A stretch of DNA of 64,000 bases from Candidatus Wallbacteria bacterium (GTDB lineage Bacteria; Muiribacteriota; JAQTZZ01): contig JAQTZZ010000017.1 of the NCBI GenBank assembly GCA_028687545.1, positions 1 to 64,000 on the forward strand, read 5' to 3'. The notes under the pieces were generated by a model that had not been told where the DNA came from, ran no database searches, and saw nothing but the letters and a program-made list of their open reading frames with translations. Position numbers and translations under genes: made by a program. This document shows positions 26,537 through 51,100 of the stretch, in pieces (position 1 is the stretch's first letter; each line of letters opens with the position of its first letter).

Positions 26537-26562
26537 AGATGCATATCTTAGGGGAGGTACTG

Positions 26563-27609
26563 ATGCATAAGATTCCTGGCGCGTATGCGCTGACGAAGAA
26601 ACCGGTGAAAGTCATGCAATGGGGGCTGGGGGCGATGGGCTCCGGAATGGCCGACCTGATCCTTAAAAAGAAGGGCATGAAACTCGTGGCTGCTTACAAG
26701 AAGAGACCTGAAGGACAGGGCAAGGACCTCTGCAAAGTGCTCAATTTGACTAAAAAAACCGGCATTATCGTGGGCAATGACCCGATCAAGGAGATCAGGA
26801 AGCACAAGCCGGATGTAGTAATAATGGCAGTCTGCTCCGGTGTGAAGGAAGGTTTTGACGACATCATGTCCGTAATTGAAGAGAAAGTCAATCTGATCAC
26901 GATCGCTGAAGAAATGGCTTATCCCTGGGCATACGACGAGAAGCTCGCTGCCAAACTGGACAAGGCGGCTTTGAAAAACGGCGTCACAGTACTCGGCACA
27001 GGCATCAATCCCGGATTCGTGCTGGATTCCCTGGTCATCATGCTCAGCGGAGCCTGCAGACGCGTGGATTCGATTGAGGCCTCCAGGATCAACGACCTGT
27101 CCCCGTTCGGACCTACGGTGATGAAGAGCCAGGGCGTAGGAACCACCAAGAAAGAATTCGACAGCGGCATCAAGGATGGAAGCATAGTCGGGCACATTGG
27201 ATTTCCGGCCTCCATCTGCATGATCGCAGACGCCATGGGCATCGAGCTTGACGAGATCAAGGAATCCAGGGAACCGATCATGTCCAAGACCGAACGCAAG
27301 ACCAAATATGTGCACGTGAAGCCGGGAATGGTCGCCGGCTGCAAGCATATCGGTTACGGCATCCGCAAGGGAAAGAAAGTCATTACCCTGATTCATCCGC
27401 AGCAGGTGCTGCCTGAGAAGGAAGGGATAAAGACCGGCGATTACATCAAGATTAACGGCGACCCGAATGTGAATGTAGCCAATTCTCCTGAATATCCGGG
27501 TGGAATCGGTACGATGGCAGTCACAGTGAACTGCATCCCGTTCATCGGGAATGCCAGGAAGGGATTAATTTCGATGCTGGACATGCCGGTCCTGCGGATT
27601 GCCAAGTAA
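26563..27609 (+). CDS. ord: 2,4-diaminopentanoate dehydrogenase
   Basis: The ATG at 26563, six bases after GGGGAGG, gives 348 residues. The N-terminal Rossmann domain carries V-M-Q-W-G-L-G-A-M-G-S-G near 19 and the dihydrodipicolinate-reductase-like fold. G-T-G-I-N-P-G-F near 146 and the R-I-N-D-L-S...T-V-M-K-S-Q-G-V-G segment near 173 are typical of Ord. The enzyme oxidatively deaminates 2,4-diaminopentanoate to 2-amino-4-oxopentanoate in ornithine fermentation. Its substrate is the product of OraSE, which is encoded 27 kb away in this window. The thiolase genes ortA and ortB that usually accompany it are not here. A palindromic terminator follows. Confidence 0.85.
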   Translation: MHKIPGAYALTKKPVKVMQWGLGAMGSGMADLILKKKGMKLVAAYKKRPEGQGKDLCKVLNLTKKTGIIVGNDPIKEIRKHKPDVVIMAVCSGVKEGFDDIMSVIEEKVNLITIAEEMAYPWAYDEKLAAKLDKAALKNGVTVLGTGINPGFVLDSLVIMLSGACRRVDSIEASRINDLSPFGPTVMKSQGVGTTKKEFDSGIKDGSIVGHIGFPASICMIADAMGIELDEIKESREPIMSKTERKTKYVHVKPGMVAGCKHIGYGIRKGKKVITLIHPQQVLPEKEGIKTGDYIKINGDPNVNVANSPEYPGGIGTMAVTVNCIPFIGNARKGLISMLDMPVLRIAK

Positions 27610-30802: not shown

Positions 30803-33800
30803 ATGCGGGCATTTACGATCGTCGAGATCCTGGTCACCATGATACTGCTTTCACTGGCTTTGCTGCCAATCTCACTTCTTTTTTCAACTGGAGTGCAGTC
30901 AGGCAAGGAAGTGGAAGGCCAGATGAAGATGCGCATGCTGGCCGAAGATCTGATGCAGGAGATCCTGTCAAAAAGTTTCGACGACCCTGAGAGCATTCTC
31001 TCGATCGGCCTGGAAGAAGCTGCCACAATTGAAACCGTCGTTGACAGGAGGCGTCTCGACGATGTGGACGATTACAGCGATTACGACGATCTGAAAAATA
31101 TTGCCAATCGAAAAAATCAGGCTCTGCCGATGTCGGCTGAAGTTTATCCGATTTCAGCTAACGGTGAAAAGCTAACTCAATATTCAGGGATGAGGCGCCA
31201 GGTCAAGGTAATGGAAGCCGACGGCATCACACCCCTGAAAAACACCGGTTTTGTGCGTACGATTTCGCTTCCGCTCGGATTCACACCCAAAAAATCGCTG
31301 CTTTCCAGATATGCCTCCAGATTTTATGTGATGAACGACAACCTGTTTAAAGCGGTGAATCTCGGGAAAACCAAACTTGACGACATGATCGAGACCACGA
31401 TCTCAGGAACGGATTTCCAGGATTTCGTTCTCTCTCCTACAGACAATGAACTATACCTGATCACATCCGATTCGATTGAAATTTATGCCATCCCCAGTAC
31501 TGATCGGGTAAACCTCGGGCTGCACTATCAGAAAATCGCCGAAATTTCCTCAAACTTTACTGACGGCACAATTGAAGCAATGATCACTGAAGCGGATACC
31601 CCGGCGTTTTCCTGCGGCAATCTCTGGATCCATTATGACGGAGGCACCAATTTCCGCAAAATGCTGCCGGTTTTCCCGGACATGATTACCTGCGCTTATT
31701 ATGCTCCGGACGAGGGGAAGACTTACTTCGGCACACGCACAGGGCTCTGCGACGAATCCAGGAAGGTAATCTGCGGCTCTACAAGAGTCAATCAGATTTT
31801 CAAAGACCTGAGGAATCAGCGCCTGTATTTCTGCACTGAAGGAGAGGGAATCTTTGTGCGCAGGGACGGTGTATTCCAGAACATCGGTTCAGCCAGCGGA
31901 TTGCCTGATCCTACCGGACGGGTGAACGTGCGCAGCCTCGCGCTCGACGAATACAGCGGCTATCTCTATGCAGCCACCGACCTGGGCGCGTATTTCAGCG
32001 TGGATGGGGGGCAGCATTTCGAGTTGATCAGACTTCCATCCGGAGTGATGCAGTCTGCAGATTACAGTAACATTGCTCTTTATTACGCGGACAGGAAAAG
32101 ATACCTGGCACTTGCCAGAGCAGATCAGAATCTCATGATTTTCCGCGAGCTTACCCTGCCAGGCACTATTGCCAATCTCAATCCCTTTGCAACTACTGCC
32201 TCGCTCGCCATGTGCACTTCCCACATCAACCGCTTTAAAAACAGCGGGCAATCCCTTTATGTCTGCTCAGATCAAGGGATGTTTACAATCCAGAAGACCC
32301 CGGCAGCATGGGAAATCAAACAATCATCAACTAAGTACGATTCCCGCAATACAGGTCTCGCTTCAGCCAATGTCCGGGATTTTGCCGGCGACAGCTGCGG
32401 CAGGAACTGGCTGGCCACTTCCAAAGGAATGGCGGTAGATTCAGGGAACGGGATCTATTCTTTTTTTCCGATTTTCAGTAAATTCAGGAAGCTGGTCCTG
32501 AGGGACAACTGGTATCATGTCCTGCAGGCTGTCGACGAGGCAGGCAGGATCATGGAAGTCGACACCTTTTCCAAACGCAAAATTTTCAGGTGCGATGGAA
32601 CAGCAGGCACCATTCCGGGTAATCCCCTCCCGAGAGTGCTCAAGGACGTCACGGGAAACTCCCTGGCGATCACCCTGTCTACAGACGGGGCCAAGGATTA
32701 CCTTGACGACGGCAGCAGCACTTTACAGCTGCCGCGGAATTATGACAGGGTTTACAGGGACCCATCCCGCAGATATGTCTATTGCCTTTCCAAATCCAGC
32801 GAAAGAATTTCCATCTTCAATTCAGCTGAGCGTTACCTGAACGAATTTAATTCGTACGATGGTTTTGAAGAATATGTGATCCTTGATACCAGCGGCACTC
32901 TTGGAGGTTACAACGTAGGAGTGGAATCATCAACCCTGCCGGCTTCGGCAGGGAATTCAGTACTTAAGATAACGAGCGACAGGAAATTCAGAGGATGGGT
33001 CTGGTGTTACAGAGAGTTCAATTTCCAGGAGGAAACGAGGACTATCGAAGTCGGCCTGAATTTTCTCAGCCGGTTTTCACAGAAAGGCACCCAGGCAGCA
33101 TGCAAATTATGGATATATGGCCGCGAAATAGCTCCCTCACTGGATTTAAGCAGCGCAGGGCAGCCTGACTTCGGCAAGGACATCACACTGGATTCAGTGG
33201 AAACCGGGATCATCATTTTGCCTGCCCCTACCCAGAGAGTAACTGTAGCCATAGGCTGCAGGGATATTTGGCCTGAAGACGGACTTTCCATTGAACTGGA
33301 CAGGATGACTGTGGATTTCGACAGAAGTTATTCACCCCTGCAGGGACCATTTCCTCTAGAACTGTCTGTTCCCAATATTCAGAACCCGATTTCCCTGAGT
33401 TTCGGCGTCAATCCGGAAATAGTGATGGTCATTTACAAGGACTCAAATTACAGACTGGGTGTTTTTTACCTGGATACGTCCAGCGCGATCCCCCAATTAT
33501 TACCCAGGGGAAGCGTGCCGATGGAATCCTACGTATCGAACCCGATGGAGATTCTGCTTTCCCCTAACGGAAGAAGAATCTTCATCCTGGATGGGGACAG
33601 GCTGGTTGTTTTCCAGCTGGTGCCTGTCCGTAAAACCATCAGGGTATCTGTCAGCGACCTGATGAACGCTGCCAGCAGCCCGTATGTCATGACCTCCACC
33701 ATGAGCTACTGGCGCAGCCAGAACAAAGGCAGGAAACTGCCTCCATTGATCACTGAAGATCCTGAGTATCTGACTTCAAACCCTAATGGTGATTATTATT

Positions 33801-36800
33801 ATCCATATAGAACCTATATTTATGACACCGATCTCTCCATGACTGGCGGCTGCTATAATTTCCGCGGTCCGCTTGCTTTCAAATCGAACAAGGGAAAATC
33901 AATTTCATTCCAGAATTCCGAACTGATCTCCAGGAGCCCCCAGTTTGCTTCAGTCATTTTCTCTTCATACAACGATGTTTCCTGCGGTTACTCCCCTGAT
34001 GACGCCGACCCCAGCATTTCAAAGGCGTGGCCCGGCCTGAGAATCGGTGCCTGCAGCCTGGATCTTCCCGGGATCCTGATCACCCATGCTGATGAGAACA
34101 TAATTACCGATTTATACGGCGGCACGCTGCGTGACATCTCTCTTCAGAACAACGTGATCGGATTAAGAATCGCAAACGGTGATTTCACGTTCAAACAGGC
34201 GGAATTCGCAGGCAATCTGTCAGGTCTTGTATTCGATACCGGTAAACAGACCATTGAGAATTCAGTTTTCAGGGACAACAGGGAAGCCATCAGCCAGAAA
34301 GCCGGGACCCTGCATCTATACGGGGCAGGCCTGATCCGCAACTATGCCGGGTTATCCCTCTTCGGTACAGACACTGCCGATTCCTGCAGTTTTCTGAACA
34401 ATACTACCGGTCTTGACGATCAGGGTTCGATTCATCTTGCCAAATGTTTTTTTGGAAACAATACTGCAGGCATCAACTGCTCCAGGGACGGGCAGTTTTC
34501 GGGCAGTTTCAACCTGTTTTACGGGAACACCACTGCGATCGACCATTCAGGGCTGAGTATCGGCAGCAGCGCTCTCCCGGTATTCGTTTACAATTATTTC
34601 AATGCCAACCATTTGAACCTGCAGCGGAGAACAGGGTCTGGAAGGGTTTTTGCCAGATACAGTTTTTTCAACGGAGCAAGAGTTGGAGCCGACGCTTTAG
34701 TCAAAGGGGAAGATCAGCAGGCTCAGGCTGAGTCGGATATCCAGCCGCTCGCCCTGTCCGGCTGCGTCAACGGATCAGCAACCTATCCTACTGCCGACCC
34801 ATCCGACCCGATACCTACCGTGATTCTGGACTATGTGCTGCAGGAAACGGGTGAGATCAAAATACCAGCACCCCAGTTGATCGAATTCTTCCCTGGTGAA
34901 GTACCCGGCATTTTCACCAGCAACGGAAGCCTGAGGATCGAAGGAACATCAACTTCTGAAGTAGTGTTTACTACCGGTACGGACCAGATCGCAGGCAAGG
35001 TTCTGCCGCTCCTCTCACCTGGTCCGAAAAATGGGGAATATACCGGAATCGTGCTCAACGGCTGGGATGAGCTCGATATCTGCAAATGGGCGAGGTTCCG
35101 TTACGGTGTCCTTGAAATCCACGGGCACTGCAGCAATCAGGAAAATTTCTATTACAACAGGCTCGAAACTGAAAGCAAAGATGACCTCAAACTGGTGCTT
35201 TCCATCGACGACGGCAAGGAAGCCAACCTGAAGTACAATTACTGGGGAAGGAATGTACCAGATTTTTCCAAGGTTCTCTCGGCTCAGAGCGGCAAAGAAA
35301 CGCATATTCCCTGGGCTTATGCAGGGACTGTGGAAGCGAGCGAGACCTGGCCGTGCTATAATTACGGGGCAGCGATCATTTCCACGATCGAGGCCGCCCT
35401 GGGCAAACAGATCCAGATTGACGCAGGCACTGGTGAAACACTGATCAAGTTCGGCGGTGATTATGCCGTCGAAAACAGCGATGAAATCATCATCACAGGA
35501 AACAAAAACGTTATTTTCACCAGCAAGAACGACAGCCAGCCCCCGATTCCACCTGAGTCGGTTTCCTCTGACCTGTCCCTCGGATGGTGGGGAAGCCACG
35601 GAATCAATGCAGCCCCTTTCGCAGGAATCGGGAAAATCAAAGCTGATGCAGGCAAAAAGCTCGAATTCAGATACGGCTGCCTCAACACTTCGAGCTTCAG
35701 CTCTTTCAAGGCTAATTCCAGCCTTGCCTTCAAGGATTGCTTCCTGTTCCTCAATGAAACTCTGATCAATGAAACTCCAGGCGGACTGCTCATGCAGCGC
35801 TGCCTCGTCAAAGGCAGCGGGAGCGGCGGCGACAGATCTTTGATGACCAATATGATTACTGCAGAAGTGGATCACTGTTTCTTTACCAGTGCGGATGACA
35901 ACGATTTCGACAGTGTGGAGACCTGCGGACTGACAGGATTCAAACCTGAGCGCTTCAACATGCCTTCCGCGGCAGGCAGTGCCTGGGGAGGTCTGAATCT
36001 CGGATCCGGAGCGTTGACCTGTACGGAATCGATTGTAAAAAAGGCTGATACAGGGATCTCTTTCTCAGCTTATTCTTATCTTAATTTCAGCGGCAGGAAT
36101 TACCTGACTGACGACAGTATCGGATTGAATCTGACTTCTTCCGCAGTTCCGACTACTATTACAGGACTTACTTTTCTAAACGACAAAGTCGGGATCAGGC
36201 TTCATTCTGCAGATAATCTCAACCTGGGCAACGGCACCGCAGCCGGTGCCAACAGTTTTCTTTATTCCCAGGACCTTCCGAAAGGGGACAAGGCGCTCTG
36301 GGCCTTGAGCAGCAAGAATCTCGTGGTAGCAGTGAACCTTTTCGGAGCCGACAGTTTCGATTACGCGAGTTCCAGTGCCTTTGGAAATTACACCACAGGT
36401 TTGAAATGCGAGAGTCTCACAAATCCGTCGTTTAAAAAGAATCTGATCGCGAATTATCAGAATATCGGCGCCTGTTTCAATTCCTGCCAGAGCGTGGAAG
36501 TGGCTCTGAACGAGTTCGACAATAACGGGATTGCACTGGAGATCGTCGACGGCGACCGCTATCTGATCGGCCATACAGTCGAAGTCGGAGAAGTGAGCAA
36601 CAAATTTTCTGGCAACGGCACAGGGATCAAGACCAACGGCGGTACCGGAGTAAGGGTGATCTATAATAAGTTCGAGAATCAGATGGATCAGGGCATAGAC
36701 AACAATACTTCACCTACCATCTCGGGAAACCTTTTTACTGCGAACAAGGCCGGAATCATAAGCGGCGGCGGACAGCCGCTGATCATTTTGAATGATTTCA

Positions 36801-39800
36801 ACAACAACCCGACTGGAGTCAAAGCGGAAATGCTCTACGATGCAGTCGGTTACAAGGACAGAATTATCCGCAGCAACAATTTCCGCAACAGCACCCAGCT
36901 GGCCTGCCAGACCAGCGGCGGGGACGTGGAATTCAACCGCTACACGGGGAATATCGGCAATCAGTCCGGAGCTGCTGCAGCTGATGTGGCAAACTTCTTT
37001 AGCTCCGACGCTGACCGCTACCTGCAGTTGCCTGAAGGCAACTTCCTCACAGTCACTGCCAAGGTTTTCCCGGGTTATACGAGCGAAGAAGCAGGCATAG
37101 ACCTTTATCCTGAAGGCCAGATTCCCACCATGGAAGTTGCGCTCAAACTCCATACCCTCAAAAACTCATCCAGCGGCCCATATTCCACTTCTCTGCTGGT
37201 TGCAAGCTATGACGATGCAGGTTCCAGGCTGGACGAGATCGAGTTCGAGCTTAAGACCTCAGGCAGCGCTGGTTCAGAATATGAAGGCCTGTTCGAAGTT
37301 TATGACATCAACGGAGTGCGGCACGGATCTCCTTCCATACCAGCTCTCAAAGCCAAAAAGAAAGGGCATCTCAAGTTCGTCTGGCTGCCGATGGGTTTTG
37401 AGCAGCCGGTTGATTCCCTGGAAACCCAGGCCCCCAACCAGGCGGACCTTTTCATTTCCACTCCCTATGATGCGACAAATCACAGCATGTATGGTCATAA
37501 CCTGGGTAATGGCGATGACACATATTACGATTTTGACGGAATAGTTATCCTGACCGCAGGCATAGGAGACGAGCCCAGGGCAGGCCACGGGACTTCAGGC
37601 GCAGGCATCACCACATTGCTGACTTTCAATGTAGGCGGCGATGTAGCTGCCACAGCCACCAGGTTGAATCTCTCGGATCAGACAGTTACTGCCACCATCA
37701 ATCTGACTAATTTCCCGAGCGGCAAAGCAGGAGTTGACTGGAAGCTGGTGACAGGCGATCCCGGTTTTCTGGAAAGGCATGGTCATGCCAGCGTTGTGTT
37801 TAAAAATAAGATGTGGGTGATCGGCGGTTACTGTCGCGCAGCAGCTGGAAATTACCTGAATGATGTCTGGAATTCCAGTGACGGCAAAAACTGGACCTGC
37901 ATTACGAACAATGCCGGGTTTCCAGGGAGGGATAACTTCACAGCTCTGGTTTTCCAGGACAGGATCTGGGTGATTGGCGGACAAGTCGCATCTCATGTTG
38001 CACAAAACGATGTCTGGTGGTCTACAAATGGAATTACCTGGTACAGCGCACGAGAGAATGGAGAACCCAACGGCTTTTCTGCCAGGTATGGTCATAGCAG
38101 CGTAATCTTTGACAACAAGATGTGGGTAATCGGAGCTGAAAGCAGCAGCGGGCTTAAAAACGATGTCTGGTGGTCTGATGACGGCACCACCTGGAGCATG
38201 GCCAGGGACAGCGGAACACCCAATGGTTTTACTGCCAGAGCAGGGCACGCCAGTGTAGTATTTAACGACAAGATGTGGGTAATTGGAGGGACAACAGGCA
38301 GCCTGATGGCAGATGCCTGGGTTTCACCTGACGGTGTGAACTGGACCTGTGTACGTAAAAACTCTGATCCTGACGGATTCCCGGCAATGAGCGGGCAGAC
38401 AAGCGTGGTGTTCGGCAATAAGATGTGGGTGATTGGCGGAAGTCCGTCAACTCCAAGGAATGTTTACTATTCGGGTGACGGGATAGTCTGGTATCAGGCA
38501 GCCAGCCCTGCGCCATTCCTTACTGAAAATGCTCATACAAGTTTAGTTTTTTCAGGGAAAATCTGGGTAATCGGCGGCATAACTGACGTCAGTCCCTCGA
38601 AGCAATTCAAGGAAATCTGGTGCTCTCCCACTGAAGACAGCTTTGAAATCACTGAAACAGCCAGCAACCAGATCGGAGGGAGTTCCCAGTCCGACAATGT
38701 GGAAGTTCTGCTGGTGGATCCTCCGCTGCTCGATGACAGGATCAAGCTGGGAGACATGACTGAGGGCAAAAAAGTCAAGATCATCACCTTTAAGAACAGC
38801 CAATACAATGATCCTGATTTCCACGGCCTGCAGATCAATTTCATCGACATTCCGCAGGTGCCTGCCGGCATGGTAGGATTCCATGTCGCCTGGTCGCATT
38901 CGCCTGACCTTTCTGATTTCAGCTCAGACTTAGTGATTCAGCCCGGTGAGAACATGAAGGAAACCCCTGCCCTGGACCCTGGAATCTACATGTTCAAGGT
39001 GCGGGCTTTCAGAAAAGACCCGCAGAAACTCGGCACCTATGAATATACAGCCTGGTCTGAACCTGCCTCATTCAGGGTGGAAGGCTGGTATCAGGTGGCC
39101 CTGCCCCCGGTTCCGGCGGGTTTGAATCTGCTGTCCTGCAGCATGGCGGACGGGCGCGTGGCTGTGCTCTCAGACAGGAGCGGCGGAAATTATTATGTGC
39201 TCTCAGCAATCGGATACGGAGACGACACCTGGGAAGTTTTCAAGATTTCAAGCGGCAGCATGACTCCCACCAATGTCAAAGTCCAGGACCATGACCATTT
39301 CATTGTGACAGGCTACAACCTCTCATCAGTGGGAACCTATCGGCTGTATCAGGCTGGGTTACTGAGGCCTGCTGTTGCAGACGCCAATATGAAATCCCTG
39401 CTCGACGCAGAACTCGGTGTGGATAAAAAATATATCTGCGTAGGAGAAGACAGCGGATCAAACGGCGGGATCTGCAACTCCCTGGAAGCAGTTTTCCACG
39501 CTTCCAGTATTCAGGACAATATTGCTGCCTGGGACAGGGAGCATTGGCAGACCATCGGCAACGGTGCAGAGCGGAACATGCTTTACTATCACTGGGATTC
39601 GACAGGCGACACTGCAGAGACGGCTGAGACCGTCGCTCCGGCTTATGCGGTTGATTCCCCCTATTACAGCATTTCTTCGGCAGACAAGTATAACCAGCTC
39701 GTCTGGGCCGGAGGCCTGCACGGGAAACTGCTTTATTCAGGGAACTTCGGCCGCACTTACAATACAGTGGAAGTCATCGGCATCGACGCTCCGGTCAGGG

Positions 39801-42800: not shown

Positions 42801-45800
42801 AGCTTGCCACCAGCAAACCCGGCTGGTCTCCCCGCAGCAGGCTTGCTGCTGCCACATTCAGCAACAGGATCTGGATTTTCTGCGGTTTTGATAACTCCTG
42901 GACTTCCAACCCCACAAATGACATCTGGCATTCACCGCCTGCGATTTCTCCGCCTATGACAATGGCCTGCCAGAAGAGCAACTGGGACACTGAACAGGTT
43001 GATTTCAGCCTGGCTCCGCATGCGCTGGACTGCGGCACATTCGAGATCATACTCAAAGGACAGGATGCAGTCGGGATCGGACTCGGGCATTCGGACTGGA
43101 CCTCTGAGATCATGACCATGCGTCCTCCCAAGCCGGTTTTCGCGTCCCCTGTCCCTGCAGGCGACTTCGCCAATCCTCCGGTCCCGCTTCCTACTCCCAC
43201 TGTCTATTACACTTATCCTCTGGGCGGAAGCAGGACCTATTCCATTACCTTCAGCCTGCCGAGCGGCCCCTGGCTGACAGGCACCACCCAGTATTCCCTC
43301 AAAACCTTCCCTTCAGGTTCTGTGGAGACCGGATTAATGGATTCGACGAGCGGTATATGGAAGGGGAGCCAGATTTATCCCAACGTGACTTCAGCACCGC
43401 CGCGGCATGATTTCAGCTACATTGTCAAAGCCCGGCGGAATGAGATAGATTCCGTCTGGAGCGATACCATGGCAGTTCGATTGAATCAGGTCCCGATCGC
43501 TTTTGTGCGGGACATGAAGCCTACCCTGGAAATGGATGTCAGGCCGGTTTCCAAGGAAGTCTGGACTGTGGGATTGATCGACGACGATACTGAAGGTGTC
43601 TACACATGGGATGACACACATTTCAACTGGGACCAGATCAGCGGCACGATCCCTGTCAAGCCCACCCGAGAAGTCGGGACCAAGCTCCAGTTCAATTTCC
43701 AGGTCACTACCCCAGGCGTTTATAAATACAATCTCAAAATCAAGGACCAGTTCTACGAACCGAATACAAACGAGACCTGGCTGAAATACAATGTTTACGA
43801 CATGTTCCACAATACCCTGAAAATCACTCCTGAAATCACTTATCAGGGCACAGCCTCAGTCACTCTCACCAAGACCATTACCGGCGGGATCGGGCCTTTT
43901 ACAGATCAGACAAATTACGGGGACGGCGGAGGCTATAAGACGATCGAAGTGGATGAACCCAGCTTCAAGGTAGACGTTCATAATTTCAGCACACTCGAAT
44001 GCGGAACAGTCCAGGTCAGCCTGCATGGATTCGATTGTTTCGGGCCTGTCCCCAACCATCAGGACACCAGCACAGTCCAGCTGATCATCAGGCCGACCAA
44101 ACCGCTCTGGGACACTCCTGAATTAGCCTTGGCACCTGGAGAAAAATTGAAATCCATTGGTACTGCTGAAATCAAATCTTTTTATTTCGCCTATCTTGGC
44201 AGCATTTCAGGAAATCCCAAATTAAAATTTCATGAGATTCTCACTGTTTTAACAGACACTGCCGTACCTGACCTGCATACATATTTCCAGATCATGGACA
44301 CTGCCAGCGCTCCATACGGCACAAAAACAACTTCGTACACTGATAAAATGTCGCCAGGCAACCCCTGGACAGGATTCCTGAGCCCGTTCAATTATAATAA
44401 CCTTCCCCACGCCCATACACTTACAGTCAAGGTGTTGCGCAATGGCCAGGAATCGTTCTGGAGCGACCCGCTCTATCTCGAGGTCAATCATATTCCCACT
44501 GCTGAAGTGATCATCGCGCACCAGCAGTATTATCTTAAGGGAGATCCTGCAGGCGGCGGAACAAACCTGCGCCAGTATCTGAACCAGGACTGGCCATGGA
44601 GTGTAGATGTCAGCGACGATGATCTGATCTCAAGCTATGATTATCCTTCGGCCTTTACCTGGGAAGTTGCGGCATCCAGTTCTGAAGTTGCAGCAGGCTT
44701 GTTCAACAGGGGTCTCGGAGTGCCTCTTCCTACAGGCACCAGCCCCAAGTTCCACTTCAGCAATCCCACCTCAAGTGTTTACAAGTTCAAGCTCAAGCTC
44801 ACAGATCCTCGCAATGAGCAGAGCATCAACCGCAACACCATGGAGATCTGGATCTACAATGATCTCTTTGTCACGGTCGAATTGACCATTACTGACGAGA
44901 TCTGTGCTGATACGACACCTGTCACAATCACCAAAAGCTATTCTGGCGGCCTGGAACCTGTGCGGTCACCGTATCTCTGCCTGCCCACTTCAGACAATGG
45001 TTCTACAGCTGATCCCACCAGTGCCTGGACGCAATCTGTCCCCAAAGGAGCTCCCTGGAGCAGCCGCTACAACTTTGGCTGCACAGTATTTAACGGGAAA
45101 ATATGGGTGGCAGGCGGCAGAACAGATGGGGGTTCTCTGAATGATATTTATTCTTCAGCAGACGGAATGCTCTGGGAAAAAGTCTATACCAGCGGACAGA
45201 TCTGGGGTCCGAGAGAAGGGATGATTTTTGTCGGATACAAAGGAAAACTGTGGGTGATCGGAGGAGATGACGGCACCCGCAAAAACGACATCTGGAGCTC
45301 AGCAGATGGAGTGACCTGGCAGCAGAGTGGTTCAACATTCCCGCAACTGATTTGCAATACTGTCTGCCTGGAATACGCAGGTGTGCTTTACATAATCGGG
45401 GGATTCGGCACAACCGGGGCTATTAATGATGTCTACATGACTACAGACGGGGAGCATTGGAACAATCTACCTCTGACTGATACTTACCCTATGCGCAACA
45501 AGCACAGGGGAGTGGTATACAATGACGGCGGGGGAGACAAGATGTGGATCAGCGGAGGTGCTACTCCTTTCCGCAACGATGTTTACTCGTCTACAGATGG
45601 CGCAGACTGGAATACAGCAACCAACGGAGCCGGCTGGGATGTCCGCGAAGGCCATGCCATGATTAATTATAACGGTAAGATGTGGGTAATGGGCGGGCAT
45701 AAAAATGGCTACTCTACCATGTATAATGACTTGTGGTATTCCACAAACGGCAGTGCCTGGACCGAGTCAGGGACCAAGCCCGGCTGGTCTGGCCGCGCCT

Positions 45801-48800
45801 TGTTTGGTGCAGTTGTATTCAGGAACAGGATCTGGGTGCTGGGAGGCTACAATGGCTCGAATAGCCTCAGCGATATCTGGTATTGCGGCACTACCCTGCC
45901 TGCCACATCGGGTCAGGTCAGTTACTTATCTTCTTACGGCGCAGAAAGCAGATCATTCAGTTACCTGGACTGCGGCACTTACGAATTCAGGCTGAAAGGC
46001 GACGATTATTATGCAACCCTGTACGCTCCGACCACCTATCAGCCGCATCACGACGAAGATGCCAAGATACTCACGATCCGGCCGCCCAAGCCTGTCTGGG
46101 ATCCTCCAACCACCTCCTGGACCACTCCCTGCACACTGACTGCTGAATCCACTTATTATTTCCCTTACAGCCACCCCACAGATCATACCCAGAACGGCAC
46201 TGTGGCTGTTACACTCAAATTCCACGACGACCTTGCTGTGCTGACCACTCCTGAAACCTATTTCCAGATCTGGGAGACTACTTCCCCGCCTGCCGCAGGC
46301 GTGAAAACTTCATATTCCGATAAAATGACATCAGGCACACCCTGGACAGGAATATTAACACCATGGTTCTATCCCAATGGAACATACGCCAAAACTATCC
46401 ATGACCATAAATACATAGTCAAAGTGAAGCGCAATTCCCAGGAATCAGCCTGGAGCAATCAGATCACCGCTGAGATCAACCGGATCCCCTGGACCCTGCT
46501 TTCAGGATCTCCATTAGCTACCAGCGAAATCAGGACCATTGAAACAGGTACATACGGCACAGCAGTCAGCTTTGAAGTCAGCGTCTATGATGACGACATG
46601 CCACTCACAAACTCAGCCTACAAGTGGGACACTTCCCATTTCGTCTGGACGCAGATTGAAGGCACTACCAAAGAACTCACTTTCCTCACAAAGCCCAAAT
46701 TCCAGTATCAGGACAGTGTCGGAGTAGAGTCTGTCTGCAGATATAAACTGCAGATCAGGGATCAGTATAATGAGCCCAGCACCAATGAAACCCTGCTCAC
46801 TATAGTCAATTCCAATTCCTTTGTGGTGACCCTCAAACTTTCAGATGATAAAGTTTTTGATACGAATCCGCTCTTCATGGATACTACAGAAGATCATATG
46901 ATTGTGACTCTTAACAAGACCCATACTGGCGGCGTCAAGCCATACTCATGCCGGATAGATTACCGAGATGGGGGAGGATGGCAAACACGAGAAATCGACG
47001 ACATGAACCCGAATAAATATCCGGCAGATCCCCACGATTTCGGCACTTTCGAGTGCGGAACCTTCGCAGTCTCGCTGAACGGCTGGGACAGCCTGGGAAA
47101 GGGCTTCCCAGGCCACGACAATACCAACACCCAGGTGCTGACAATCCAGCCCCAGATCCCGCTCTGGGATTTTCCGGCAGCGAATCTTGCGCCAAAGGAC
47201 TGGCGGTCTGCTTCCAGCTGGAATTCAGGAACCAACTGGGATCATGACATGTATTACTTTACCTATCCGAACCCGGCTACTTCCATGGAAGTCAAGCTCG
47301 TTTTCCATCTCCCGCCTGTGATGCGGTCAGGAGGAGGTGTGACATATGAAGTGACTACAAATGAAGTCGCACTCCCATATTCCGGGGCTATGACGTTTGA
47401 GGTGGGCGACTACTGGTGGGAGGGCACCCAGTCTGTGATCCTGAAGAATCCGCCGACACACGATTACACCTGGGAAGTGCGTGCCAGGCGCAATAAAGTT
47501 GCTTCTCCCTGGAGCACTAAATTCCCTGTGCGCATCAATCGGGTGCCTGATGCCTGGGCCATCAATACAGGTGAGAGCTACACTTATGATCATGTGTCAA
47601 TCATAGCAGGTGCAGGACACACTTATGTCTGGTCCGCAGGCTCCAAAGACGACGATCCTGCTACAAGCTATCCCTATCCCGACAACTTTGTCTGGACATA
47701 TATTTCAGGCATACCTGGATATACACCGACTCAAACTGGCACTAAACCCAAATTTCAATTTTCCACTGATAAGCCTCAAATCTATAAATACAGCCTGCAG
47801 GTGGCTGACCAGTATGGCGAACCCAGCCTCAATACAGCAACTGCAGTCATGACGATCTATGCCTATGACACCATGGACGTCACTCTGAACATCTCGCGCA
47901 CTTGTGAAATCTGGGGAGACAACACTGTCATCACCTTGAATAAATTTTACAACACAACCGGCGCACTGCCGCCTGTCGGAACCCCTCAGATTGATTACGG
48001 TTACGGAGCATTCATCAACACAGCCTATGAGTTAGAAGACAAGGATTTCAGCAGTTATGACTGCAGGAGCGGAGATTATCCGTTGATTCTGAAAGGATCC
48101 GACCAGACCGGTTCATTAGCTATCCCGCATTTTGATTCCAGCTCAAAAACAGTGATAGTAGTCCCGCAGACACCTGTCTGGGACGCTCCACTCTCACCTA
48201 AAACTTATCCCTGGCAGAAGAACGGAGTCGGCACTGTTTATTATTATTATTCCTACACTGCTACGCCTTATAATGCTGCCAATACTCAGAATCAGGTTAC
48301 ATTGAATTTTTACCTTCCTGCGCCGACTCCAGGCGCTCCTGTCGGCGCTGTTGACGGGACAGTGCGTCAGGCTGGTGTAACTTCCAGAACTGAAGCAATG
48401 ACAGTAGAAACCGGGGTCTGGAAAGACAATCAGGTCTGGGACCTGGATGTGGCAAGCCATGTCTGCGACATGTATGTCAAAGCCACCCGCAACACCAAGG
48501 TTTCCACAGAAGAAGTGCAGCATATCTATGTCAATCATGTCCCTAACGCCTATGTAACGACTTCTTCGGGAAACAAGACTCAGGATGTAGTACCATACAA
48601 TTTCAACTGGTCCTGGCAACTTGGTGTGGATGACGACGATCTGATCAGCAGCTATCTCCCCTGGGATAATAATTCAATAAAATGGACGCAGCTCGATCCT
48701 GCACCCCTTCCCATGCCACCGAATGTCACGATCGGTTTTGCCGCAGGCCAGAAATGCACTTTCACTGCTCCCACTGCAGGTACTTATGCTTATCGCCTGC

Positions 48801-51100
48801 AGGTTAAAGACCCTGATGGAGAACTCAGCACAAACGGTCCAACCTACACTATTTATGCCTATGATAATATCTCTGAATCACTCTCGCTGTCTCCTTCTAC
48901 AATCACCTGTTCGAACACATCCGCCAATGTACAAATCGAAAAGAATTCAACTGGTGGACTGCCTGATCTGAATTACTATCTGGATTATGGACTGGGCTCT
49001 GGTCTGCAATTAAACAGCACAGGTACGGAAACAAAAAATTACTTCAACGTTGATTGCAACGTTTATACTGTCAGGTGGCAGACAGTGGACAGCTACCCTG
49101 CAGCGCTCGGCGGCCCCCACCAGCCGATCGTCACCAAAACTCTTTACATCAACCCGCCTGTGCCGGCCTGGAAGGATCCCTCAGGCGCTACTGCAAAAAC
49201 TATCAGCGGCACGCCTTATTATTATTATGTTTACGCAAACGGCGGCAGTACGAACATCACTGTGAATTATGAACTGCCGTCGACCACGCCAAGCAATACT
49301 TACATTCCCAGCATGAGCAGCCAGATTAGGATCAATGGCGGCAGCTACGCAGCCAATGTCATGGCCTGGGACGGCACCATCTGGAAGGCATCCAAAACAT
49401 ATAGCGGCCTGACATCATCTCCCACGCATGCCAGGAGCTTCGACGTTTACGCAGACCGCGGCAATGGCAGGACCTCTTCTGTAATCACTATTCCGAAGTC
49501 GGTTTTCATCAATCAGAGGCCCTGGGCCCAGGCTTATTCAGGCAATGACAATTACACGATCGACGACGTGCGGCCAAGTACGAACAAGGATTTTTCCATC
49601 GGAATACTCGACGATGACGCCTACACTTTCATTTGGGACACTTCCCATGTGATCTGGAAAAGAGAATCAGGCCCCGGATCATCCATACCTGCGCCTTATT
49701 CTTCTCCCAAAACCTGCAGGTACAATGAACCGATTGACGGCACACAGGTTTTCAGCCTACAGGTCAAAGATCCCTATGACGAACCGAGCACAAATTCCGC
49801 CCAGCTCACGGTGTATGTTTATAATGTGGTTTCGATAGACAGCTGGAGCATTTCCCCGTCAACGATCGACGCTAGCACTTCTGCTACAGCGACAATGTCT
49901 TACTCAGCAAGTGGAGGGATCGGCGGGCTCAGTGCCTGGTACAATGACGGAATGGGTGGAAACGTCGGTTTCTCAAGCCCTCTGACCCACAATTTCGGCG
50001 ACCATGACTGTGCAGTTTATACAATCAGATATCATGTCACGGACAGTATTGGAAACAGCGGCGGCGTTACCACCCATGAAAATGAAAAGACCGCTTCACT
50101 CACCATCAATCCTCCTGTACCAGAATGGACCGCACCGTTAGGTCCGCCGCCGACCAGAACAGTCAGCGGTACACCGTATTATTATTATGTCTATCTCGAA
50201 GGAGGAAGTGCGACTGTTACCATGAACTATCAATTACCTTCAGGCACACCCGGGAGTTCTGTGATTCCAAGCATGAGCAGCAAGATCAAGATCAACGGTG
50301 GCACATACGCCTCCACCACAATGTCCTGGAGTGGAGTCGTATGGAGAGCGGCTAAGATTTACTCTGTCACTTCAGGCGGAGGACATGCCAGGAATTTTGA
50401 TGTCTATGCAGACCGCGGTAATGGCAGGACATCAGGAACTGTAAATACGCCGCAGGATATTTATGTCAACCAGAGGCCGCAGGTTGTCGCTAAAACAGTT
50501 AAGGATGATGTAAATGCATATTTCCCATTCAATGTGACCATCAATGATGATGATTCCTCATTTACTTACAAATGGACTCAAATAGATGGTCCATGGTCTG
50601 GCTTCACTACATCCCAGCCATTCTACGGACAATTCAGTGAGATTTGCGGAGGTTCCGCTACCAATCCTGACGCCCATTACAGTTTAGATGCAACTGACTC
50701 GCCTGCAGGTGAAACCGGAAGCGGGACAATCGCTTTCCATATCAATCCCCCGGCATACGGTAGTTTCAGCACTACAGGTAGTGAAGTAGAGAACCAGGGA
50801 ACGCAGGCTATCTTCACAATAGTATACTCTTGCGTGGCAGGGTATCAGACAATGTACAGATGCTCTGACAACGCAGGGAATGAATCTGGCTGGATTACTC
50901 GTTCAAATTCCGTAAACGAAACCTGGACAGATCCCTTTAGCGCAGGCACAACCGAGACCTTTACACTTTTGATTCAGGGCTGGTACCCAAACACAAGCGG
51001 GGATAAAATATTCCATGCCGGTAAAGCAATTACCCCAGTTGCACCAGGAAATAACGGATCTTTCGGAAATATTCCAACTGCCCCTGACTGGACATTCTGA
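30803..51100 (+). CDS. Giant multidomain surface protein with prepilin/pseudopilin N-terminus
   Basis: One uninterrupted frame of 6,765 residues. It begins with a prepilin-type cleavage/methylation segment (M-R-A-F-T-I-V-E-I-L-V, hydrophobic helix to about 30) and the pseudopilin-like L-A-E-D-L-M-Q-E-I-L near 52. Then, approximately: propeller/BNR repeats (170-1000), a right-handed parallel beta-helix (1075-2065), Kelch propeller 1 (2313-2608), a fibronectin-III-like domain (2690-2760), a BNR propeller (2763-3090), a PKD-like domain (3300), Kelch propellers 2 (3746-4044) and 3 (4743-5028), and seven tandem Ig/PKD-like modules (about 4050-6650). There is no sortase or recognised C-terminal sorting signal. 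Export through a type IV pilus or type II secretion assembly is inferred from the N-terminus; a role in adhesion is a guess. Confidence 0.9.
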   Translation: MRAFTIVEILVTMILLSLALLPISLLFSTGVQSGKEVEGQMKMRMLAEDLMQEILSKSFDDPESILSIGLEEAATIETVVDRRRLDDVDDYSDYDDLKNIANRKNQALPMSAEVYPISANGEKLTQYSGMRRQVKVMEADGITPLKNTGFVRTISLPLGFTPKKSLLSRYASRFYVMNDNLFKAVNLGKTKLDDMIETTISGTDFQDFVLSPTDNELYLITSDSIEIYAIPSTDRVNLGLHYQKIAEISSNFTDGTIEAMITEADTPAFSCGNLWIHYDGGTNFRKMLPVFPDMITCAYYAPDEGKTYFGTRTGLCDESRKVICGSTRVNQIFKDLRNQRLYFCTEGEGIFVRRDGVFQNIGSASGLPDPTGRVNVRSLALDEYSGYLYAATDLGAYFSVDGGQHFELIRLPSGVMQSADYSNIALYYADRKRYLALARADQNLMIFRELTLPGTIANLNPFATTASLAMCTSHINRFKNSGQSLYVCSDQGMFTIQKTPAAWEIKQSSTKYDSRNTGLASANVRDFAGDSCGRNWLATSKGMAVDSGNGIYSFFPIFSKFRKLVLRDNWYHVLQAVDEAGRIMEVDTFSKRKIFRCDGTAGTIPGNPLPRVLKDVTGNSLAITLSTDGAKDYLDDGSSTLQLPRNYDRVYRDPSRRYVYCLSKSSERISIFNSAERYLNEFNSYDGFEEYVILDTSGTLGGYNVGVESSTLPASAGNSVLKITSDRKFRGWVWCYREFNFQEETRTIEVGLNFLSRFSQKGTQAACKLWIYGREIAPSLDLSSAGQPDFGKDITLDSVETGIIILPAPTQRVTVAIGCRDIWPEDGLSIELDRMTVDFDRSYSPLQGPFPLELSVPNIQNPISLSFGVNPEIVMVIYKDSNYRLGVFYLDTSSAIPQLLPRGSVPMESYVSNPMEILLSPNGRRIFILDGDRLVVFQLVPVRKTIRVSVSDLMNAASSPYVMTSTMSYWRSQNKGRKLPPLITEDPEYLTSNPNGDYYYPYRTYIYDTDLSMTGGCYNFRGPLAFKSNKGKSISFQNSELISRSPQFASVIFSSYNDVSCGYSPDDADPSISKAWPGLRIGACSLDLPGILITHADENIITDLYGGTLRDISLQNNVIGLRIANGDFTFKQAEFAGNLSGLVFDTGKQTIENSVFRDNREAISQKAGTLHLYGAGLIRNYAGLSLFGTDTADSCSFLNNTTGLDDQGSIHLAKCFFGNNTAGINCSRDGQFSGSFNLFYGNTTAIDHSGLSIGSSALPVFVYNYFNANHLNLQRRTGSGRVFARYSFFNGARVGADALVKGEDQQAQAESDIQPLALSGCVNGSATYPTADPSDPIPTVILDYVLQETGEIKIPAPQLIEFFPGEVPGIFTSNGSLRIEGTSTSEVVFTTGTDQIAGKVLPLLSPGPKNGEYTGIVLNGWDELDICKWARFRYGVLEIHGHCSNQENFYYNRLETESKDDLKLVLSIDDGKEANLKYNYWGRNVPDFSKVLSAQSGKETHIPWAYAGTVEASETWPCYNYGAAIISTIEAALGKQIQIDAGTGETLIKFGGDYAVENSDEIIITGNKNVIFTSKNDSQPPIPPESVSSDLSLGWWGSHGINAAPFAGIGKIKADAGKKLEFRYGCLNTSSFSSFKANSSLAFKDCFLFLNETLINETPGGLLMQRCLVKGSGSGGDRSLMTNMITAEVDHCFFTSADDNDFDSVETCGLTGFKPERFNMPSAAGSAWGGLNLGSGALTCTESIVKKADTGISFSAYSYLNFSGRNYLTDDSIGLNLTSSAVPTTITGLTFLNDKVGIRLHSADNLNLGNGTAAGANSFLYSQDLPKGDKALWALSSKNLVVAVNLFGADSFDYASSSAFGNYTTGLKCESLTNPSFKKNLIANYQNIGACFNSCQSVEVALNEFDNNGIALEIVDGDRYLIGHTVEVGEVSNKFSGNGTGIKTNGGTGVRVIYNKFENQMDQGIDNNTSPTISGNLFTANKAGIISGGGQPLIILNDFNNNPTGVKAEMLYDAVGYKDRIIRSNNFRNSTQLACQTSGGDVEFNRYTGNIGNQSGAAAADVANFFSSDADRYLQLPEGNFLTVTAKVFPGYTSEEAGIDLYPEGQIPTMEVALKLHTLKNSSSGPYSTSLLVASYDDAGSRLDEIEFELKTSGSAGSEYEGLFEVYDINGVRHGSPSIPALKAKKKGHLKFVWLPMGFEQPVDSLETQAPNQADLFISTPYDATNHSMYGHNLGNGDDTYYDFDGIVILTAGIGDEPRAGHGTSGAGITTLLTFNVGGDVAATATRLNLSDQTVTATINLTNFPSGKAGVDWKLVTGDPGFLERHGHASVVFKNKMWVIGGYCRAAAGNYLNDVWNSSDGKNWTCITNNAGFPGRDNFTALVFQDRIWVIGGQVASHVAQNDVWWSTNGITWYSARENGEPNGFSARYGHSSVIFDNKMWVIGAESSSGLKNDVWWSDDGTTWSMARDSGTPNGFTARAGHASVVFNDKMWVIGGTTGSLMADAWVSPDGVNWTCVRKNSDPDGFPAMSGQTSVVFGNKMWVIGGSPSTPRNVYYSGDGIVWYQAASPAPFLTENAHTSLVFSGKIWVIGGITDVSPSKQFKEIWCSPTEDSFEITETASNQIGGSSQSDNVEVLLVDPPLLDDRIKLGDMTEGKKVKIITFKNSQYNDPDFHGLQINFIDIPQVPAGMVGFHVAWSHSPDLSDFSSDLVIQPGENMKETPALDPGIYMFKVRAFRKDPQKLGTYEYTAWSEPASFRVEGWYQVALPPVPAGLNLLSCSMADGRVAVLSDRSGGNYYVLSAIGYGDDTWEVFKISSGSMTPTNVKVQDHDHFIVTGYNLSSVGTYRLYQAGLLRPAVADANMKSLLDAELGVDKKYICVGEDSGSNGGICNSLEAVFHASSIQDNIAAWDREHWQTIGNGAERNMLYYHWDSTGDTAETAETVAPAYAVDSPYYSISSADKYNQLVWAGGLHGKLLYSGNFGRTYNTVEVIGIDAPVRGVEFLNFYLGFACLSRKRSDGYQILYSANGGTTWTGQNTPASSWNLNDVEMDPDTDEIQPEGIVRGLAVGDKQTLLLYYGKNVAEPADFPLKPWLFVRNMNLIPPTFQHPSVYYDLDGRNVNFNWDSIPMADKYRLSCNGTGILDTCELFYTVEIPALPVSGPLTKEISDIYRLTELRTGSGSLPSVYSNEIKIVVPMFNPHRVNFFKDVVETCQLLDLSFAQLGDSSLGGANGYRVERTIDTEPNNCPDFMKVFNTSTNLWSDNDSVNQFGLYHYRIFGTSGSGTSLDSIDRFALRNMPPTCDAGPDMGGIENETIHLTGTYETNDAGQDMKTFLWQIVNGELEDNFSDKYSAETDILLKLPGTGSDDSGEARVMFQVQDMNQQYMPTTSYDFRDPNSIYFRNYTDSDEMRIRVFRSFWVTLDLSRNLIDQADPKISIIKGHHGGVPPVPDPILCLPTGTNTPAMTEPDPRFSVILSDVRYAIAGTKYKFSYNFVLYFDKLDIDTAYLRFFSSNPFETLETATQGVGQGFTGNLNFSAKDIQVQASSDPMINLRFQVIGVKNGAASVLAEGVKNGSPKLSEDQWWGFYDSLTPTVYYKGGSAPSGSALCSVLPLVKIHRKSDQNREIFFNLTMDSANPSACGTTYVLADYYDNSGTKYEKKWDKIDCPFDLSDVADKDKKLDAKKDKFVGSRFVYTIYLGNQSPRTYSGVINNLETMPEDVWTVCPLPEGWDSGSLSPYGANTPAAHWVKVSPQGQIWTSRADQVVFVYNNRIYLMGGYDGTTFFNDVYSSADGFTWRRERDNTDDASSWSRRRGFAAYECNGRMFIAGGESSAAPTYKSDIWSTADGKTWTNEGNLPNSNCQHNVFWLNGKLYLTSGYDNVVVSRVYDSTDGKNWTLRTSNPGWAARCWQSAVAFDPGSGTKAWLLGGWPGTPSGMLYASDSPGTDNSWNRVSLSEVLGHKIEEQAMVVFDGKIWVLGGFDGSSCNSEVWSSKDGSNWQLATSKPGWSPRSRLAAATFSNRIWIFCGFDNSWTSNPTNDIWHSPPAISPPMTMACQKSNWDTEQVDFSLAPHALDCGTFEIILKGQDAVGIGLGHSDWTSEIMTMRPPKPVFASPVPAGDFANPPVPLPTPTVYYTYPLGGSRTYSITFSLPSGPWLTGTTQYSLKTFPSGSVETGLMDSTSGIWKGSQIYPNVTSAPPRHDFSYIVKARRNEIDSVWSDTMAVRLNQVPIAFVRDMKPTLEMDVRPVSKEVWTVGLIDDDTEGVYTWDDTHFNWDQISGTIPVKPTREVGTKLQFNFQVTTPGVYKYNLKIKDQFYEPNTNETWLKYNVYDMFHNTLKITPEITYQGTASVTLTKTITGGIGPFTDQTNYGDGGGYKTIEVDEPSFKVDVHNFSTLECGTVQVSLHGFDCFGPVPNHQDTSTVQLIIRPTKPLWDTPELALAPGEKLKSIGTAEIKSFYFAYLGSISGNPKLKFHEILTVLTDTAVPDLHTYFQIMDTASAPYGTKTTSYTDKMSPGNPWTGFLSPFNYNNLPHAHTLTVKVLRNGQESFWSDPLYLEVNHIPTAEVIIAHQQYYLKGDPAGGGTNLRQYLNQDWPWSVDVSDDDLISSYDYPSAFTWEVAASSSEVAAGLFNRGLGVPLPTGTSPKFHFSNPTSSVYKFKLKLTDPRNEQSINRNTMEIWIYNDLFVTVELTITDEICADTTPVTITKSYSGGLEPVRSPYLCLPTSDNGSTADPTSAWTQSVPKGAPWSSRYNFGCTVFNGKIWVAGGRTDGGSLNDIYSSADGMLWEKVYTSGQIWGPREGMIFVGYKGKLWVIGGDDGTRKNDIWSSADGVTWQQSGSTFPQLICNTVCLEYAGVLYIIGGFGTTGAINDVYMTTDGEHWNNLPLTDTYPMRNKHRGVVYNDGGGDKMWISGGATPFRNDVYSSTDGADWNTATNGAGWDVREGHAMINYNGKMWVMGGHKNGYSTMYNDLWYSTNGSAWTESGTKPGWSGRALFGAVVFRNRIWVLGGYNGSNSLSDIWYCGTTLPATSGQVSYLSSYGAESRSFSYLDCGTYEFRLKGDDYYATLYAPTTYQPHHDEDAKILTIRPPKPVWDPPTTSWTTPCTLTAESTYYFPYSHPTDHTQNGTVAVTLKFHDDLAVLTTPETYFQIWETTSPPAAGVKTSYSDKMTSGTPWTGILTPWFYPNGTYAKTIHDHKYIVKVKRNSQESAWSNQITAEINRIPWTLLSGSPLATSEIRTIETGTYGTAVSFEVSVYDDDMPLTNSAYKWDTSHFVWTQIEGTTKELTFLTKPKFQYQDSVGVESVCRYKLQIRDQYNEPSTNETLLTIVNSNSFVVTLKLSDDKVFDTNPLFMDTTEDHMIVTLNKTHTGGVKPYSCRIDYRDGGGWQTREIDDMNPNKYPADPHDFGTFECGTFAVSLNGWDSLGKGFPGHDNTNTQVLTIQPQIPLWDFPAANLAPKDWRSASSWNSGTNWDHDMYYFTYPNPATSMEVKLVFHLPPVMRSGGGVTYEVTTNEVALPYSGAMTFEVGDYWWEGTQSVILKNPPTHDYTWEVRARRNKVASPWSTKFPVRINRVPDAWAINTGESYTYDHVSIIAGAGHTYVWSAGSKDDDPATSYPYPDNFVWTYISGIPGYTPTQTGTKPKFQFSTDKPQIYKYSLQVADQYGEPSLNTATAVMTIYAYDTMDVTLNISRTCEIWGDNTVITLNKFYNTTGALPPVGTPQIDYGYGAFINTAYELEDKDFSSYDCRSGDYPLILKGSDQTGSLAIPHFDSSSKTVIVVPQTPVWDAPLSPKTYPWQKNGVGTVYYYYSYTATPYNAANTQNQVTLNFYLPAPTPGAPVGAVDGTVRQAGVTSRTEAMTVETGVWKDNQVWDLDVASHVCDMYVKATRNTKVSTEEVQHIYVNHVPNAYVTTSSGNKTQDVVPYNFNWSWQLGVDDDDLISSYLPWDNNSIKWTQLDPAPLPMPPNVTIGFAAGQKCTFTAPTAGTYAYRLQVKDPDGELSTNGPTYTIYAYDNISESLSLSPSTITCSNTSANVQIEKNSTGGLPDLNYYLDYGLGSGLQLNSTGTETKNYFNVDCNVYTVRWQTVDSYPAALGGPHQPIVTKTLYINPPVPAWKDPSGATAKTISGTPYYYYVYANGGSTNITVNYELPSTTPSNTYIPSMSSQIRINGGSYAANVMAWDGTIWKASKTYSGLTSSPTHARSFDVYADRGNGRTSSVITIPKSVFINQRPWAQAYSGNDNYTIDDVRPSTNKDFSIGILDDDAYTFIWDTSHVIWKRESGPGSSIPAPYSSPKTCRYNEPIDGTQVFSLQVKDPYDEPSTNSAQLTVYVYNVVSIDSWSISPSTIDASTSATATMSYSASGGIGGLSAWYNDGMGGNVGFSSPLTHNFGDHDCAVYTIRYHVTDSIGNSGGVTTHENEKTASLTINPPVPEWTAPLGPPPTRTVSGTPYYYYVYLEGGSATVTMNYQLPSGTPGSSVIPSMSSKIKINGGTYASTTMSWSGVVWRAAKIYSVTSGGGHARNFDVYADRGNGRTSGTVNTPQDIYVNQRPQVVAKTVKDDVNAYFPFNVTINDDDSSFTYKWTQIDGPWSGFTTSQPFYGQFSEICGGSATNPDAHYSLDATDSPAGETGSGTIAFHINPPAYGSFSTTGSEVENQGTQAIFTIVYSCVAGYQTMYRCSDNAGNESGWITRSNSVNETWTDPFSAGTTETFTLLIQGWYPNTSGDKIFHAGKAITPVAPGNNGSFGNIPTAPDWTF
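34030..36990 (+). repeat. Parallel beta-helix region of the giant protein
   Basis: About 980 residues (1077-2063) of short strand-turn repeats rich in N/G-I/L-x-F-x-x-N-x-x-G-I, typical of pectate-lyase-like right-handed beta-helices, for example G-L-R-I-A-N-G-D-F-T-F and F-S-G-N-G-T-G-I-K-T-N-G-G. Such helices are common in adhesins and polysaccharide-active enzymes. No catalytic triad was recognised. Confidence 0.7.
37740..38625 (+). repeat. Kelch propeller 1 of the giant protein (six repeats)
   Basis: Six Kelch units of about 49 residues follow the pattern R-x-x-H-x-S-V-V-F-x-N-K-M-W-V-I-G-G...N-D-V-W-x-S-x-D-G-x-x-W. Six blades would close one beta-propeller. A fibronectin-III-like domain follows. 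Confidence 0.88.
42040..42935 (+). repeat. Kelch propeller 2 of the giant protein (six repeats)
   Basis: Six Kelch units, more diverged than in propeller 1 (Y-L-M-G-G-Y, F-I-A-G-G-E, Y-L-T-S-G-Y, W-L-L-G-G-W, W-V-L-G-G-F, W-I-F-C-G-F). It is bracketed by H-H-G-G-V-P-P-V upstream and L-D-C-G-T-F-E-I downstream, two halves of the Ig-like module. Confidence 0.85.
42940..50760 (+). repeat. Seven tandem Ig/PKD-like modules of about 330 residues
   Basis: The segment R/N-P-P-x-P-x-W-D-x-P recurs near nucleotides 43120, 44090, 46080, 47150, 48160, 49150 and 50110. Spacing is 960-1070 bases except for one interval of 1990 bases that contains Kelch propeller 3. Each unit also has Y-Y-Y/Y-F-x-Y, V-K-A-x-R-N-x-x-x-S-x-W-S, I-N-x-V-P-x-A, D-D-D, W-T-Q-I-S-G, K-Y-x-L-Q-V-K-D-Q-Y-x-E-P-S-T-N and H-D-F-x-x-x-D-C-G-T. 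The last two modules are the most alike. Confidence 0.85.
45030..45885 (+). repeat. Kelch propeller 3 of the giant protein (six repeats), nested in a module
   Basis: Six Kelch units (W-V-A-G-G-R, W-V-I-G-G-D, Y-I-I-G-G-F, W-I-S-G-G-A, W-V-M-G-G-H, W-V-L-G-G-Y) interrupt an Ig-like module between Y-S-G-G-L-E-P-V and Y-L-D-C-G-T-Y-E-F. The point of insertion matches that of propeller 2. Confidence 0.87.

Follow-up and report, generated by a model that had tools for sequence, protein, structure and literature searches.

Usual I-type minor pilins end after approximately 130-200 residues. Larger, modular pilins are already known from Raynaud 2021 and from PilB and PilC of S. sanguinis (PMC8179133, PMC9934059). 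Processed S. sanguinis PilB comprises 454 residues, PilA of the same species is an I-like subunit (PMC8179133, PMC9934059), and the most extreme multi-domain case in the modular-pilin survey has 860 residues (PMC8179133). The statement in the initial annotation of the DNA analysed here that pilins normally have 100-250 residues is true as a norm, but larger modular pilins had already been described (PMC8179133). Prepilins carry a class III signal, i.e., a short leader ending in Gly or Ala followed by ~21 hydrophobic residues, usually with Glu at +5 (PMC10191384). Minor pilins have been located at the pilus tip (PMC8179133, PMC9934059, PMC7541494), and a priming complex of PilY1 and minor pilins has been reported in M. 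xanthus (PMC7541494).

The window, i.e., the whole stretch of 64,000 nucleotides that was analysed, contains a gene at positions 30803-51100 of the + strand that runs from an ATG start through 6,765 codons in a single frame with 0 internal stops, encoding a protein of 6,765 aa and 744 kDa. The initial annotation had described this 20-kb frame as uninterrupted, and we found it intact and reproduced both in a paralogue and in relatives from other genomes. Given the base composition of the window, the probability of 6,765 stop-free codons is ~10^-141, and codon-like positional GC extends along nearly the whole frame. The protein begins with MRAFTIVEILVTMILLSLALLPISLLF, followed by MLAEDLMQEILSKSFDDP; along its full length, a membrane-length hydrophobic stretch occurs only at residues ~1-31.

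The first three residues, M-R-A (30803..30811, + strand), form a prepilin leader with a predicted cleavage site after Ala (-1), Phe at +1 and Glu at +5, so that the start MRA/FTIVE (the slash marks the cleavage site) fits the class III signal. Additionally, Pfam N_methyl (PF07963) matches with 22.6 bits, above its cutoff of 21.2, and both the signal and the HMM search of the N-terminus agree with the prepilin start first proposed. The leader is followed by the pilin alpha-1 helix (residues 4-58; 30812..30976, + strand), which consists of the hydrophobic part, the sole TM-like stretch of the protein, plus AEDLMQEILSKSF. AlphaFold2, run with a 6-sequence alignment of the head, predicts a helix at residues 3-56 (block pLDDT 54-85), and most of the remaining head scores <50. 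The module continues to residue 165 (residues 59-165; 30977..31297, + strand); this part, supported by alignment with MshD-like and Wallbacteria heads and by hhalign, carries the I-type pilin motifs FDDP (as SFDDP) and DDVDDY. The alignment shows that the giant head, a gammaproteobacterial MshD-like pilin and the Wallbacteria heads share Ala or Gly before the cleavage site and Phe after it, Glu at +5, F-DP and DD[VI]DDY.

The first 200 aa match the NCBIfam model of PilV (TIGR02523) with E=7.9e-6 and 26.4 bits, below its equivalog cutoff of 52.2. In a profile-profile comparison with hhalign, six giant heads matched two I-type pilins with 98.7% probability (E=1.7e-16, 122 columns), and when the giant-head profile was compared with the 44 small pilins of the examined loci, I-type pilins ranked at the top, above the H, J and major-type pilins from the genome of the giant. 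Because of the PilV match, the shared motifs, the profile comparison and this ranking, we interpret residues 1-165 as a full I-type minor-pilin module of the PilV/GspI/MshD kind, and the comparison with I-type pilins lends support to the GspI/PilV-type head on a giant ectodomain that the initial annotation had proposed.

The ectodomain begins with a propeller-like stretch followed by a beta-rich module (residues 166-1000; 31298..33802, + strand), both recognized by collinearity with the paralogue at 36-57% identity. No Pfam family exceeded its cutoff in these residues of the window protein, and the paralogue gives a weak Reg_prop match there; sequence searches of the PDB returned no match for residues 160-866 and 1000-2200. 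A parallel beta-helix region (residues 1001-2150; 33803..37252, + strand) is assigned from the collinear region of the paralogue, which matches Beta_helix (PF13229) with E=9e-19. The beta-helix of the initial annotation is thus supported by way of the paralogue, although the window protein has no Pfam match of its own in this region. The Kelch propellers that the annotation had claimed are matched by Pfam at three places. Propeller 1 (~residues 2300-2640; 37700..38722, + strand) matches PF24681 with 94 bits and Kelch_1 with E=1.4e-28; propeller 2 (~residues 3740-4050; 42020..42952, + strand) lies within the beta-sandwich chain, with E=3.3e-19 for PF24681; and propeller 3 (~residues 4735-5040; 45005..45922, + strand) matches PF24681 with E=2.4e-27, self-alignment also identifying the last two. 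Propeller 3 breaks a tandem array of 7 beta-sandwich units of ~330 residues (Ig/PKD/FN3-like; 42983..50719, + strand), which makes up the C-terminal third and was defined by self-alignment, unit alignment and matches to PKD (PF22352). The PKD-like modules sit in the last third of the protein, and the PF22352 matches support Ig/PKD-like modules such as the Ig-like ones first noted.

The AlphaFold2 model of a tandem unit is all-beta with a mean pLDDT of 62, and Foldseek weakly matches it to cadherin repeats with TM about 0.2-0.3. Given these TM values and the moderate model confidence, we call the array simply a beta-sandwich chain. As in modular pilins, Kelch, PKD and, through the paralogue, beta-helix domains lie C-terminal to residues 1-165 on one polypeptide. 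The ectodomain would hold roughly 20-30 beta-sandwich domains, and from the domain counts its contour would measure 100 nm or more.

The paralogue, encoded on contig C11 of the same genome, has 3,777 aa, a TTG start and the leader MKA/FSFVE. Two blocks of the window protein, residues 1-2259 and residues 2593-3275, align collinearly with it; apart from one propeller, the collinearity starts at the leader and covers ~3,200 residues. Between these blocks, window residues 2260-2592 form a Kelch propeller, while the paralogue has a PD40 (TolB-like) propeller (E=1.1e-29). Judged by the alignment, a Kelch/PD40 propeller cassette is exchanged between the paralogues at this position of the ectodomain, which suggests that the propellers are interchangeable, putative binding cassettes drawn from the large propeller pool of the genome. 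This pool comprises 122 Kelch matches, many of them in frames >1,000 aa (up to 4,765 aa) behind lipoprotein or ordinary signal peptides; it is an unusually large set of propeller-bearing exported (surface) proteins. A Kelch protein encoded immediately downstream of the paralogue (L032:1-1479) contains an FGE-sulfatase-like domain.

A first contig scan with the window protein and its paralogue as the query pair yielded no further relatives. Prepilin-headed frames of 1,830-2,621 aa were found in four other assemblies, ADurb.Bin243, JPNA_metabat.86, Ca. Wallbacteria GWC2_49_35 and UBA6123, at least one of which is named Ca. Wallbacteria; 2 of the four frames end at a stretch or contig boundary. 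Where the upstream region of these relatives is available, a PilB/GspE-like ATPase gene is followed by H-like, J-position and PilX/K-like genes, and the giant comes as the final prepilin; the J and K assignments in this ATPase-H-J-K-I operon are made partly by position. Between the two closest of these giants, dN/dS is 0.085 over 2,446 codons (dS 0.68), with the lowest value in the head (0.04) and values of 0.06 and 0.11 in two parts of the ectodomain; by these ratios, head and ectodomain are both under purifying selection. BLAST of the window protein against the Wallbacteria giants gave a match confined to the head, with ectodomains that could not be aligned; the large ectodomains therefore probably arose more than once, or else diverged very far. 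Apart from the giants, the giant-head and I-type matches listed for 37 genomes of the phylum lie in frames <500 aa. These genomes have 25-107 N_methyl matches each, which marks a very pilin-rich lineage. One Wallbacteria giant prepilin (L041:5440-12702) has an FGE-sulfatase-like domain in its C-terminal part. Ca. Muiribacterium halophilum (L036, G002:C14; L045) has a third kind of large prepilin-headed gene, whose head contains an in-frame TAG that reflects either a sequencing error or a broken gene.

The source genome (4.54 Mb, 97% complete) contains 30 N_methyl reading frames, two prepilin peptidase genes (PF01478) and 15 T2SSF matches. One cluster brings together genes for PilB, PilM, T2SSF and a secretin, and three unassigned genes in it occupy the usual positions of PilN/O/P; a PilT-like ATPase is encoded at a separate locus, and the assembly-gene set also includes PilC. 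Our search of the genome thus recovered both the peptidase and the assembly genes on which the initial annotation had made its reading depend. Both giant genes of this genome lie outside any pilin operon, and the arrangement of an I gene with H, J and K, which is seen in the Wallbacteria homologues, is absent from both loci. Ordinary-size I-type pilins are encoded in the same genome as well; therefore, the giants are not its sole I subunits.

Next to the giant gene, the window contains the 3' part of a gene for a 4,765-aa lipoprotein (57687..64000, - strand, continuing to about C17:71984), recognized by its lipobox (FITAC-GGGG) and Pfam matches and a probable partner of the giant prepilin. Its domains are hydrolase-like, PD40, Kelch (in a long array) and Big_4; a match to Palm_thioest is weak (E=2e-4, under the cutoff). 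A second giant lipoprotein adjoins the paralogue (L032:5906-8386) and shares 48.5% identity with the copy of the window over the first 836 residues. Both start with a lipobox and carry a GYSxGG hydrolase-like motif (GYSTGGL/GYSCGGL) and a PD40 propeller, and each lies <=7 kb from its giant prepilin, these two being the only full-length-type matches in the genome. An obligate pairing was rejected, given a sister genome that has the lipoprotein and in which a giant prepilin was not detected; therefore, the pairing may reflect the duplication of one locus. The window also encodes D-ornithine 4,5-aminomutase (54439-56974) and 2,4-diaminopentanoate dehydrogenase (26539-27609), which together suggest ornithine fermentation.

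Based on these data, we consider it reasonably probable that this frame codes for a giant modular type IV pilin, in which an I-type module (residues 1-165) bears an ectodomain of ~6,600 residues and carries it at the pilus tip; the tip location and the ligand of such a protein are inferred. SRP/Sec would insert the protein with its leader staying in the cytoplasm, PilD would cut after Ala3, and the ectodomain would fold within the periplasm. The I-type head would then enter a pilus-priming complex of minor pilins of the H-I-J-K type, and the ectodomain domains, each presumably narrow enough for the secretin channel, would leave ahead of the filament and hang from its tip. There the ectodomain would serve as a long chain for multivalent binding, in the role that PilY1 fills elsewhere.

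A Planctomycetota genome (J022; L046:5696-7201) encodes, within an H-J-I-K operon, an I-type pilin of ~500 aa that has the motif DDIDDYDGW and bears a grafted laminin-G/ConA-like lectin domain; its K-position neighbour has a carbohydrate-binding module. I-type heads therefore serve as carriers elsewhere, and this lectin-bearing pilin illustrates the principle at an intermediate size. In M. xanthus, fusing the bulky sfGFP to PilY1.3 and PilW3 prevented the pili from extending (PMC7541494); therefore, passing ~740 kDa through a secretin is a genuine problem for a tip location. The gene location outside a pilin operon, the presence of other I pilins, a fold that is not confirmed (pLDDT 50) and a PilV match below its cutoff also count against the giant-pilin reading.

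The same location away from pilin operons would suit a prepilin-processed giant that stays anchored in the inner membrane or joins a short T2SS-like pseudopilus, its ectodomain remaining periplasmic or exporting the giant Kelch proteins. Such an arrangement would fit the many T2SSF proteins and the need of many giant exported Kelch proteins for an export route, as well as the position of a Kelch-bearing giant lipoprotein beside the gene and of its relative beside the paralogue. We consider it unlikely: a contour of at least 100 nm, as derived from the domain counts, would be too long for the periplasm, the binding-type, cassette-swapped domains suggest changing external ligands, and in Wallbacteria the gene lies alongside genes for a PilB/GspE-like ATPase and for H, J and K pilins.

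The head could instead be a relic that acts as a membrane anchor or signal alone and has no role in assembly, with the ectodomain cell-bound or released by cleavage. In this genome, Kelch-type ectodomains of the same kind follow signal peptides of both the lipoprotein and the ordinary type, and the anchor may therefore be interchangeable; but the pilin module is better conserved between the paralogues than any other part, with 60-67% identity in residues 1-100 and mostly 31-57% in the remainder, dN/dS in Wallbacteria is lowest in the head, beyond the hydrophobic helix too, and the DDVDDY motif would be unnecessary for a mere anchor, which together make this account improbable. That the fusion is an assembly or frameshift artefact made from a small pilin gene and a giant gene unrelated to it is scarcely credible. 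The frame is known from an assembly alone, a draft of 108 contigs; nevertheless, the collinear paralogue shares the junction, and a similar fusion occurs in four other assemblies with purifying selection across head and ectodomain. The paralogue and the independent relatives therefore argue for a real gene rather than an assembly error.

Within the giant-pilin reading, a more speculative and rather doubtful extension is that these proteins form a distinct class of pilus tip, in which the I subunit of the priming complex is itself the adhesin, an interchangeable propeller string perhaps >100 nm long replaces PilY1 in a lineage that apparently lacks it, and the whole works with the hydrolase-propeller lipoprotein encoded next to it. 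Should the chain leave the cell on a pilus, it would be a hard test of the passage of a folded-protein load through a secretin. The paired copies with an exchanged propeller provide a natural experiment in the acquisition of new ligands by pilus tips. The hosts are uncultured bacteria, about whose pili little is known.

PilC/PilY1 tip adhesins resemble the giant in their proposed role, as large modular propeller-bearing proteins of the tip. PilY1 is exported separately and carries a C-terminal propeller (PF05567), whereas the ectodomain of the giant is covalently part of the pilin. PF05567 is absent among the Pfam matches of the giant; it was also unmatched in 37 genomes of the phylum, the source genome included, in a search whose controls were silent too and which is therefore not proof of absence. 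Huge bacterial surface proteins of >5,000 aa (PMC11573180) are similar to the giant in size, in their repetitive chain of domains and in a probable role in attachment; the giant differs in being anchored by a prepilin head, and the text of that survey makes no mention of pilins (PMC11573180).

PilV, GspI and MshD share the sequence and motifs of the head, and the Wallbacteria giants additionally share their position in the ATPase-H-J-K-I order, whereas the matches of the giant to named families fall below equivalog cutoffs. A literature search, which was not exhaustive, found no description of giant prepilins. The modular pilins of S. sanguinis, PilB and PilC, have in common with the giant an N-terminal prepilin module, C-terminally grafted binding domains and a proposed display at the tip. 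In contrast to them, the giant has 6,765 residues, ~8x the length of the 860-residue extreme of the survey, and combines three Kelch propellers, a beta-helix and a beta-sandwich chain on an I-type carrier, an I subunit thus being used to bear a very large ectodomain. Modular pilins as such are known; the scale, the I-type carrier and the exchange of propellers appear to be new.
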